A stretch of 64,000 nt of DNA, from positions 1,426,001 through 1,490,000 of the forward strand of contig NZ_JARRAG010000002.1 of the NCBI RefSeq assembly GCF_029589435.1. Reading direction: 5' to 3'. Positions 31,727 to 37,089 of this stretch are shown one piece after another. Numbering within the stretch: the first letter of the stretch is position 1; each line of letters starts with the position of its first letter. Origin of the DNA: Paludisphaera mucosa. Its GTDB lineage: Bacteria; Planctomycetota; Planctomycetia; Isosphaerales; Isosphaeraceae. The notes under the pieces were generated by a model. The model saw nothing but the letters and a program-made list of their open reading frames with translations. It had not been told where the DNA came from and did not search any database. Made by a program: the position numbers and the translations under genes.

Positions 31727-34700
31727 ATGACCGTCGGCGCCCAGACTCGGACGCAGGGCAAGCTCCTGGACTACAAGGAGTTCATCGAGCACCAGATCGC
31801 CCTGACGCGGCGGCGGATCAAGTACACCGACCTGGTCACCGCCTGCCTGGTCCTGGCGGTCGGCGTCGCGCTGACGCTCCTGATCGAGGTCGTGCTCGAC
31901 CACGCCTTCGGCCTGCCCGCCTTCGTGCGGCGGATCATCCTGATCGCCGGGACGGTCTCGGCCGCGGGGTTCGTGATGATGCGGATCCTCCGCCCGCTCC
32001 TGCTCTCGATCAACACGATCTACGCCGCGAAGACGATCGAGGGGGCCGACGGGGGGATCAAGAACAGCCTGATCAATTACCTGGAGATCCGCCGCGACCC
32101 GACGAAGGTCTCCAAGAACGTCATGGCCGCGCTCGAGTCCCGCGCGGTCGCCGACCTGACGCACGTCGAGCTGGACGACGTCGTCGACCAGCGGCGGGCC
32201 ATGCAGACGGCCTACGCGCTCTGCGGCGTCATCGTCGCCTTCTGCATCTACGCCGCGATCACGCCCAAGAGCATCCTCGACTCGACCAAGCGCGCGTTCC
32301 TCGCCGACGTGGTCCGGCCCACCAACACCAAGCTGGTGAACATCCGGCCGGGCGACGACGCCGCGCTGTCCGAGATCGTCGCCGGGTCGCACGTGGCGTT
32401 CTCGGTCGACGTCCAGGGCGTCCGGCCCGAGAAGGTCAAGCTCCACTACAGCGCCGACGGCGGCAAGTTCTACGCGGTCAAGGAGTTCGAGGCCGGCAAG
32501 AACTACTACGACCCCTGGTCGACGACCCTGACGAACCTCCAGCAGAGCCTGGACTACTACGTCACGGCCAACGACGCCGAGTCGCTCCACTACGAGCTGA
32601 AGGTCATCGCCGCGCCGATGGTCGACTCGGTCGCCGTCGACTACGAGTTCCCCCGCTACACCGGCGTCCCGCCCCGCACCCACGTCGAGGGCGGCCACGT
32701 CGAGGCCGTCGAGGGGACCATCGTCACGGTCCACGCCCGCACCAGCGAGCCGGCCAAGGCGGGCTCGCTGAACCTGACCACCGGCGCGTCGGCCGGGATG
32801 ACCGTCTCCGACGCCGACGCCCGCGAGCTGACCGGCAAGTTCAAGGTCGAGAAGATCGGCATGTACACGGTCAACTTCCGCACGACCGGCGGCCAGCTCA
32901 ACCCCAACCCGGTCGCCTACGACATCCAGGCGATCCCCGACCGTCAGCCGGCGGCCAAGTTCCTCAAGCCCGAGCGGTCCGCCGTCCGGGTCCCGGCGAA
33001 CGTCCCGGTCGACCTGGTGATGGCCGGCGACGACGACCACGGCGTCAAGGACGCCACGCTCCACGTCCTGCTGGGCGACGACCCGCTCGTCACCAAGAAC
33101 GTGCTCGAAGGCCGGCCCCCGCTCACCGCCTTCGAGGCGGCCGAGACCCTGAACCTGGAGCAGCTCAAGGTCCCCGCCGGCTCGACCCTGACTTACTGGC
33201 TGGCCGTCCGCGACAACCGCGAGCCGACCTCCAACCGCATCGAGACCCAGCGCCAGACCATCGAGGTCGGCGAGCCCGTCGCGGTCAAGGAGAAGCAGGA
33301 GATCGAGCGTCAGCAGGCCGAGGACCGCGAGCGCCGCGAGAAGGAAGCCCGCGAGGCCCAGCAGAACCAGCCCCCGCAGCCCGCCGATCCCACCCAGGGC
33401 GGCCAGCCGGGCGGCGCCGAGGGGCCCGAGCAGGAGCCCCCGCGCGACAGCGTCCCCGAGAGCGGCGCCGGTGGCGAAGACCATCCCGGACCCGCCGACC
33501 GCGGCGGGAACGCCCCCAACGAGCCGCCCCAGGATCCCGACCAGCCCCCGAAACCCGGCGATCCCCAGCCCGGCTCCGCCGACGACGACGCCGGGAACCC
33601 CGAGCAGGCCGCCGCCGACGCCAAGATGCGGAAATTCCAGGAGGCCTTCCAGAAGCAGGGCCTCCTGAAACCCGAACCCGGCAAGCCCGGCGAGAAGCCC
33701 TCGCCCGGCGGCCGTCGCGACGGCAAGCAGCCCAGCAACGACGATCCCCAGAACGCCCCGACCGGCGAGCGTCCCCGCATGGAGCAGCCCAACGGCGGCC
33801 AACCGGGCGCGAACCCGCCCCCGCGTCAGCCCCAGGGCGAGCCCGGCGCGAACAACCCCGGCGGCGAGGTCAAGGAGGGCGACCGCGAGCCGAACGCGAA
33901 GCCCTCGAACGACGGGAATCCGCCCCAGACCAAGCCCGGCGACCCCGGCCCGCGCCAGCCCGCCGGGAACCCGTCCAACCCCCAGGCCGCGACGAACCCG
34001 GGCGGTCGCAACGACCAGCCTCAGACCAAACCAGGCGACCGGCCCCCGGGGGGCAAGCCCGGCGATCCGGCCGACGCCAAGGAGCCTGGGAACGCGCCCA
34101 ACCAGCCGGCCGGCGCCGACGAGCCCGGCAAGCCCGACGCCCGGAACAACCCCGGAGATCCCAATCCGGCCGGCAAGCCCGGCGACAAGCCCAACCCCGG
34201 CGCGAATCCGGCCGGCAAGCCTGGCGATAAGCCGGCCGCCGGCGCGGACCCGACCGGGAAGCCGGGCGACCAGCCCAACGCCGGCGACGAGCAGGGCGGC
34301 CAGCGCGGCGACCAGAAGCCGACCGATCCGCAATCGGGCGGCAAGCCCGACGCGACCCAGGGCCGCAACCCGAACCAGGCCGGCGACCCGAAGCCGGCAG
34401 GCAAGCCCGGCGATCAGGACCCGTCCGGCAAGCCGAGCGATCCGAAGCCAGGCGGCAAGCCGGCGGGATCGACGCCGGCCGGCAAGCCCGGCGACCAAGA
34501 CCCCGGCGCGAATCCCGCAGCTCCGAAGCCGAGCGGCGAGCCCGGCGACCCGAAGCCGGGCGGCCAGTCTGGGAGCCAGGATCCCGCCGGCAAGCCGAGC
34601 GATCCGAAGCCCGGCGGCAACCCGGGGGACCAGAAACCGATGAGCGACCCGGGCGATTCGAAGCCCGGCGGTAAGCCCGGGGACCCGAAACCCAGCAGCC

Positions 34701-37089
34701 AACCCGGCGACCAACAGCCGGGTGGCAAGCCGACCGATTCGAAGCCGGACGGCACCGCTGATACTCAGAACCCGTCCGGGAAGCCGGGCGATCCGAAGCC
34801 CGGCGATCAGGCCCCGAAAGGCAAACCGGGGCCGACCGGCCGGCCCGGCGACAAGCCTTCCGGCGACAAGGAAAACGAGACGCCAGGCAAGCCCGGCGAT
34901 TCGTCGAATCCGGCCGATCCGGGCTCGGCCAAGCCGGGGTCGAAGCCGGGCGAGTCGAACCCGTCCGGCGCCCCGAAGGCCAACTCGACGCAGGCCAGGC
35001 CCGGCGACGATTCGGGCAAGCCCGACGCTTCCACGGATCCGGCCGACAAGCCCGGTACGCCTTCGGATCCGAAGACTCAGGCCCGCGGCGACCAGGGGAA
35101 ACCCGGCGAGCCCCGCCCCGACGGTCCCAAGAATCCCCAGGGCGGCCAGCCCGGCGATCCCAAGAACCCTCCCCAACCGGGGATGGAGAAATCGCCGACC
35201 GATGATCCCAGGGACCAGCCCAACGGCGCGAAGCCGTCCGAGGACGGTCGTCCCCAGCCCGACGGCGCGAAGCCGAAGGCCAATCAAGATCCGCGCGCCC
35301 AGGCGGCCGACGCCCAGAAGAAAGACGCGCAGACCAAGGACGGCGTCCGCAAAGACCAGACGAAGCCCGCGGGCGAGCCCGGCGCGATGAAGCCCGAGGA
35401 GGCTCCGAACGGAGCCAAGCCCGAAACGGCCGATCCCAAGGACGCCCAGCCCAGGAACGAGCCTGGCAAGCCCGACCCGGCGAATCCGGCCAAGGATGAC
35501 GCCGCGGCCCGGCCCGAGCAGGCCGATCCCAAGGCCCGCACCAATCCGCGGCCCCAGGATCCGAACGCCCCGCGCGACGCCGCCAAGGACGCCGCACGCC
35601 CCGAAGATCAGGCTCAGCCGGGCGATCAGGCCGCGCCGAAGGATGCTCCCAAGGATCCCCAGACGAAGGGGACCCCCAAAGACCAGCCCAAGCCGGCCCC
35701 CGGCGACAAGCCCGAGATTAAGAAGGCCGCGACCCAGGACGCCACGAAGAAAGACGCGACCAAGGACGCCGCCAAGAAGGACGAACAGAAGAAGTACCAG
35801 TCCCCCCAGCCCAAGGACCCGCAGAAGCCCGCCGAGAAGAAGGCGAAGCCCGAGGACGGCGCCGCCGAGGAGCCCTCGCCGCAGCCGGCCGACCCCAAGA
35901 ACCCTCAGCCCAAGGATGAATCGCCCCCGCAGCGGCCGTCCGACCCGTCCTCTTCACCTTCCGGCGAACAACAGCAGGGCGGCAAGGAAGGCGCTCAACA
36001 GGGCGCAAATGAGGGGTCGCAGCAAAGTCCCAAGGAGGGGGCTCAGCAGGGCAGTCAAGAAGGCGCTCAGCAAGGCGGCAAGGAAGGCGCTCAGCAGGGC
36101 GGCAAGGAAGGCGCTCAGCAGGGCGGCAAAGAGGGGGCGCAGGGCGGCAAGGAAGGCGCTCAGCAGGGCGGCAAAGAGGGGGCGCAGGGCGGCAAGGAAG
36201 GCGCTCAGCAGGGCGGCAAAGAGGGGGAGCAGGGCGGCAAGGAAGGCGCCAGCAGGGCGGCAAAGAGGGGGCGCAGGGCAGGGCGCTGCAAGGCGCTCAG
36301 CAGGGCGGCAAAGAGGGGGAGCAGGGCGGCAAGGAAGGCGCTCAGCAGGGCGGCAAAGAGGGGGCGCAGGGCGGCAAGGAAGGCGCTCATCAGGGCGGCA
36401 AAGAGGGGGAGCAAGGCGGCAAGGAAGGCGCTCAACAGGGCGGCAAAGAGGGGGCGCAGCCTGGTGGCCAACCGCAGGGCGGTGGCAAGCCAGGGGCCGG
36501 AGGGACGGGCGGGCAGCCGAACACAAGCTCGACCGGCGGTGGCAAGCCGGGCGGGGCGGCGGGTTCGGGGGCGCTTCCGCCTCAAGAGGACGAGCCTGTC
36601 GCCCCGGTCAAGGAGCGTGAGGACGCCAACGGCGAGACGATCGCTCCCCGCGACCAGCCCCAGTCGGAGCTGGTGCTCCGGACGATCCGCGACCTGCTCG
36701 ACAAGAAGACCGACACGTCCGAGCTGGAAGCCGAGACCGGCATGAGTCGGACCGAGATGGAGCAGTTCGTCAAGCAGTACGAGAAGCTCAAGTCGGAGCC
36801 CGCCGGCCCCGGCCGCGAGATCGAGATCAAGCCCGGCCAGTCCGGCGAGGGGGTCCGGGCCGAGCCCGGGCTCCCCGGCCTGGGCGACCGCGCCCGGTCG
36901 TCGAGCAAGACCATCAAGGAGCGAGGGGCGACGGCCCAGGACGAGATCCGCGACAACCAGGAGGGCATCCGCTTCGCGCCTCCCGCCGAGTTCCGCGGCA
37001 AGGTCGAAGGCTACAAGAACGCCCTCTCCCGCCGCCCCGGCTCGCCCGCGCGGCCGTCCCGGCCGGCCCCGAGCGGCGGCGCCCGCTGA
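31727..37089 (+). CDS. Very large membrane-anchored low-complexity protein (DUF4175-like N terminus), frameshifted
   Basis: If the frame is restored, this encodes about 1787 residues. Residues 1-500 are ordinary: membrane spans near 36-57, 70-88 and 162-178, then predicted Ig-like β domains, resembling DUF4175-type proteins. From about residue 520 the protein becomes Pro/Gly/Lys/Asp-rich, with dozens of G-K-P-G-D-x-x-P units. It then has GGKEGAQQ units (21-24 nt each) and a short conserved C-terminal domain (LVLRTIRDLLDKKTDTSELE, then METFV-like MEQFVKQYEKL). The frame is positions 2 mod 3 up to about 36249, where one base is missing from a repeat unit. It then continues in positions 1 mod 3 to the stop at 37087-37089. 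Without the shift the protein ends at 36745 with an Arg-rich tail. Function unknown. Confidence 0.7.
34050..35300 (+). repeat. Coding repeat array: G-K-P-G-D units
   Basis: Degenerate short coding units of about 10-15 residues, built on Gly-Lys-Pro-Gly-Asp-x-x-Pro, run through the middle of the large protein. They predict an extended, disordered, highly charged segment. Confidence 0.75.
35964..36460 (+). repeat. Coding tandem repeat: GGKEGAQQ units
   Basis: Alternating 24- and 21-nt units encode GGKEGAQQ and GGKEGAQ or GGKEGEQ. The repeats are nearly identical at DNA level. One unit has lost a T (GGCGCTCAG to GGCGCCAG) at about 36249-36250, causing the frameshift. Confidence 0.8.

Follow-up and report, generated by a model that had tools for sequence, protein, structure and literature searches.

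N-terminal membrane spans together with a long low-complexity region are typical of proteins of the DUF4175 family (PF13779), and in the TIGR02302 family of the Alphaproteobacteria such spans are followed by a long low-complexity region rich in Gln and Gly. Functional information comes from a few sources: AdvA of Acinetobacter baumannii is described in PMC7481262 as a critical cell division protein with two helices predicted to cross the membrane and a DUF4175 domain; the title of a work in the reference list of PMC6842974 states that an Azorhizobium mutant without a TIGR02302-type gene overproduces exopolysaccharides; and a TIGR02302 family protein appears in a table of CenR binding sites in PMC9275681. 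Here we analyze a gene on the forward strand of a 64,000-nt stretch of the Paludisphaera mucosa genome (positions 31727–37089; the whole stretch is referred to as the window, all positions are coordinates in it, and the genome is G000 in the comparisons). N-terminal membrane spans and a long low-complexity region are present here as in DUF4175 proteins, and the gene product is, judged from its sequence relatives, a divergent, new member of the DUF4175-like proteins of Isosphaeraceae. As written, its reading frame breaks inside a tandem repeat. We attribute this break to a consensus or assembly error in the GC-rich repeat of a few-contig assembly, with a rough probability of 0.68; since the break is likely an error, the full-length protein is most likely what the living cell produces.

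The open reading frame (ORF) at 31727–36745 encodes 1672 residues, and a second, C-terminal frame runs to 37089. The N-terminal domain (N-domain; 31727–33400), DUF4175-like by profile matches, comprises three hydrophobic spans and then a putative Ig-like (immunoglobulin-like) region, and is followed in frame 2 by a low-complexity linker rich in Pro, Gly, Ala, Lys and Asp (33401–36249) with tandem arrays at 34125–34731 and 35720–35783. The array in which the frame changes, at 36046–36459, was scored 653 and 693 by Tandem Repeats Finder (TRF; threshold 50) and has a period of 45 nt, built from units of 24 and 21 nt that encode GGKEGAQQ and GGKEGAQ. A search with the first 8 bases of the unit located 16 unit starts at 36074–36439, eight in frame 2 up to 36233 and then eight in frame 1 from 36256. 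Thirteen of the 15 intervals between them measure 21 or 24 nt, one 23 nt and one 48 nt. The 23-nt unit (36233–36255), compared with its intact neighbors of 21 or 24 nt, is the site of the change from frame 2 to frame 1, which bears out the original prediction that one repeat unit had lost a base near 36249; the 48-nt interval adjoining it (36256–36303) holds an odd unit that is 3 nt longer and is frame-neutral. Beyond the break, the sequence as written encodes an Arg/Ala-rich out-of-frame tail (36250–36745, stop at 36743–36745), while frame 1 encodes the conserved C-terminal domain (C-domain; 36451–37089, stop at 37087–37089), with third codon positions that are 96% G+C across 36600–37086. A real, fixed and recent frameshift, upon which the strain would make the 1672-residue protein with its Arg/Ala-rich tail and without the C-domain, would fit a break that is clear and lies outside a homopolymer, an out-of-frame reading that stays open to 36743, and the adjoining odd unit, which a genuine local rearrangement could leave. 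We nevertheless regard such a frameshift, although it is the strongest competitor of an error, as less likely, on the grounds of the comparisons that follow.

Orthologues could be followed in 25 loci whose two ends share a contig. In 22 of them, one of which (G032) contains a run of N, the whole gene reads in a single frame, with the C-domain in frame with the N-domain; this comparison, which the original prediction had suggested, favors a sequencing or assembly error over a real frameshift. The exceptions are G042, which has an N-run and is uninformative, and G031 and G038, which are broken too, at other places in the gene than G000, and could thus be cited for a real frameshift. In G031 (locus L062) the frame changes twice, once ahead of the 24-nt array and once within it, and in G038 (L070) it changes a single time, at eight consecutive G; both genomes are few-contig assemblies (9 contigs or fewer). 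Programmed ribosomal or transcriptional frameshifting that restores the frame has next to no probability in our estimate. As this mechanism would have it, the frame beyond the break consists of conserved coding sequence, and the four frame changes in the long gene (one in G000, two in G031, one in G038) share one direction; but the 22 single-frame loci need no shift, and a conserved shift is therefore not seen among the 25, the breaks lie at different places and have no sequence in common, and inspection by eye revealed no long A/T run near the break in the window. A literature search found no paper on frameshifts in planctomycete low-complexity tandem repeats.

The C-domain gives no clear sign of relaxed selection in G000. 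Over 155 codons in six genomes (15 pairs), dN/dS was 0.31–0.60 in the five pairs with G000 and 0.25–0.47 in the ten others (G000–G030, 0.31; G000–G031, 0.39; G030–G031, 0.31). For the C-terminal half of a secretin gene that is likewise split in G000, the values were 0.14–0.42 with and 0.24–0.41 without G000 (277 codons). An error, or a mutation that arose very recently, would be expected to leave no clear relaxation; the finding speaks against a real frameshift, as do the C-domain matches obtained in 41 of the 45 family genomes, G000 included. The original prediction had called the C-domain conserved and its sequence clean, and had taken the loss to be recent, reversible or erroneous; the conservation, the clean coding sequence and the choice between recent and erroneous stand, whereas frame switching driven by slippage, to which we return below, does not.

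The secretin gene just mentioned (32–1952) enters the window from upstream and contains a second frame break: its N-terminal half (STN, Pfam E 1.6e-6, narrowly short of the cut-off) is read in another frame than its Secretin domain (E 6.3e-29), the change sitting inside a Gly/Thr repeat near 985–990. Of 38 secretin loci read, four were cut short and lacked the N-terminal half; 32 of the 34 with both halves read in a single frame, and the split ones belong to G000 and G028, the latter being split inside the repeat as well. Two further genes of G000 showed similar interruptions, namely a carbonic-anhydrase-like gene (L109:12168-12918), split at a run of G and continuous in one frame in four of four orthologues, and an FHA-domain gene (L124:7325-10106) whose frame changes in a low-complexity stretch and for which three of five relatives are single-frame; its orthologue in G032 is split with an N-run nearby. 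The candidate breaks proposed by a coding-frame finder numbered 5 for G000 (394,355 coding nt, with the window counted in), 7 for G031 (349,980 nt), 4 for G038 (291,526 nt) and 1 for G028 (331,985 nt), so that G028, although a few-contig assembly too, has fewer candidates than the other three. Of these 17 candidates, those in the secretin, carbonic-anhydrase-like and FHA-domain genes were compared with relatives. The finder is insensitive in repeats, because it missed the known long-gene breaks in all three broken genomes. As a separate observation, a transposase gene of G000 (L113:18413-19803) occupies two frames, with Pfam DUF772 and DDE_Tnp_1 on its pieces; a second full copy was not found in the G000 genome.

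When gene copies were sorted by assembly type, the long gene was broken in 3 of 10 few-contig copies (G000 included) versus 0 of 14 others (p = 0.059, Fisher; G032 and G042 are left out for their N-runs), and the secretin gene in 2 of 10 (G000 and G028) versus 0 of 24 (p = 0.080). Pooling both genes gave 5 of 20 versus 0 of 38 (p = 0.003), and 3 of 18 versus 0 of 38 without G000 (p = 0.029). Breaks in the two genes examined are thus confined to few-contig assemblies, which argues against a real frameshift and for an error. G028, which we take to be P. borealis PX4, is one of these assemblies. The P. borealis PX4 genome was sequenced with PacBio RSII (PMC5352709), and errors that survive short-read polishing lie mostly in genomic repeats according to a benchmark (PMC8442456). 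A number of points weigh against an error or limit the case for it, however. Contig number is a proxy for sequencing method only, and the cut-off of nine contigs was chosen after seeing the data; neither single-gene test reaches 0.05; in the pooled comparison, copies from the same genome are not independent, and G000 was picked for study because it is broken. The repeats of the benchmark need not be short tandem arrays. Classic long-read errors fall in homopolymers, whereas the break in the 23-nt unit does not; the frame changes in the long gene have a common direction, and the FHA-domain orthologue is split in G031 as well, without an N-run. The dN/dS of G000–G028 (0.60) is the highest of the 15 pairs, and the dN/dS values would be no different if a real mutation had arisen very recently.

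The near-identical repeat units had led the original prediction to propose that slippage could vary length and frame between cells. With intact units of 21 or 24 nt, no repeat unit was found whose gain or loss changes the frame: being multiples of 3, the units can be gained or lost as a whole with an effect on length, but with the frame kept. This extends to the orthologues, as the TRF period is a multiple of 3 in 66 of 67 non-overlapping arrays from 26 genes (the window gene and 25 orthologues, one of them without arrays). The lone exception is the array of the window itself, for which the frame break makes 182 nt the best-scoring period, although 45 nt also fits. Divisibility by 3 holds for the arrays of the broken G031 gene, too, and so tells no more than that the frame survives when whole units are gained or lost. 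A different version of the idea would be a contingency locus, in which recombination within the array loses or copies the defective unit and cells differ in making the C-domain. The near-identical units flanking the defect could recombine and remove the defective unit, and the genes of G000 and G031 are each broken within the repeat array, at different places. Such a locus is improbable all the same, as divisible-by-3 periods in nearly all arrays are the opposite of a frame-switching repeat and none of the 14 many-contig copies is broken. Restoring the frame would take a recombination event in which the defective unit itself is removed, and nothing here shows one. It is equally doubtful that one population displays an envelope tether with or without its C-domain, a variation that G000 and G031 would have captured independently.

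An assembly error as the cause of the break would leave a full-length protein whose architecture largely agrees with the original prediction of three membrane spans, Ig-like domains and a long charged repeat region. Hydrophobicity peaks at residues 31–49/42–60 (overlapping), 66–84 and 161–179 fit three spans, and the linker, counted from residue 559 to the break (949 residues), consists of 20% Pro, 16% Gly, 11% Ala, 11% Lys and 10% Asp. For an Ig-like region after the third span the evidence is modest. Pfam Big_7 matched 2 of 28 orthologue N-domains (E ≤ 0.001), and a model of residues 405–521 is a beta-sandwich with a predicted local distance difference test score (pLDDT) of 75, whose Foldseek matches to Ig/fibronectin type III-like and other beta-sandwich folds were modest as well (best E 4.2e-4; template modeling scores by query length mostly 0.4–0.6). 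The AlphaFold model of the whole N-domain, built from three sequences, was poor (pLDDT 48.5). As to family membership, DUF4175 was matched by 13 of the 28 orthologue N-domains at E ≤ 0.001 (best 1.9e-12), and two distant G000 paralogues, which match the N-domain of the window at E 2.6e-17 and 8.2e-12, exceed the DUF4175 gathering score. The N-domain of the window differs from these relatives and paralogues in having no DUF4175 match up to E 10, with the reservation that HMMER filters drop most matches above about 0.1. Neither of the two domains of the window protein yielded anything significant in Pfam or NCBIfam; members of the C-domain alignment gave no Pfam match better than E 0.03, and PDB sequence profiles gave weak matches only (E 0.28 or worse). 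The likeness to the TIGR02302 family lies in the layout of spans and low-complexity region, whereas no match to its model was obtained at E ≤ 1 among the 28 N-domains and the two paralogues (the presence of this model in the searched release is unconfirmed). AdvA resembles the window protein by description only, in its DUF4175 domain and membrane helices.

Judged by its architecture alone, the protein is probably a periplasmic tether anchored in the membrane. As a cluster of Arg and Lys precedes the first span and the number of spans is odd, the N-terminus would be cytoplasmic and the Ig-like region, linker and C-domain periplasmic. The linker, being hydrophilic, built from repeats and usually similar in length, may serve as a flexible tether by which the C-domain is kept at a distance from the inner membrane. 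The literature on AdvA and TIGR02302 may be taken as providing leads to envelope roles.

Within the family, an N-domain match was found in 45 of 45 genomes, although those in G013, G019 and G043 are no better than matches of distant paralogues. Among 199 sampled genomes of the phylum, G000 being one of them, 9 besides G000 gave a match to the C-domain profile; six of these matches lie in open frames of 1,196–1,408 residues, and as eight of the nine extend beyond a stop codon, their ends are loosely set. Named relatives are Paludisphaera soli JC670 and a Planctomycetales metagenome-assembled genome. Of ten genomes examined, nine (all except G032) carry nadB within about 3.7 kb downstream and six carry purM within about 3.2 kb upstream. 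Both ends of the protein are conserved, while the linker repeats vary by species (GQQGQ, GSKADGSKQAE, NQAGDAQQKPGAP and QPGDQKSG among them); the stretch between fixed points spans 911–1443 residues in 20 of the 25 loci and 312–645 in the other five.

If the locus were a true switch, it would represent a new surface-variation system in planctomycetes, yet the evidence points elsewhere. A word of caution follows for the use of these genomes, as conserved genes with GC-rich repeats can look broken in few-contig planctomycete assemblies. For the family itself, what deserves attention is a DUF4175-like protein that keeps its two ends conserved while its linker is made from different repeats in each species.

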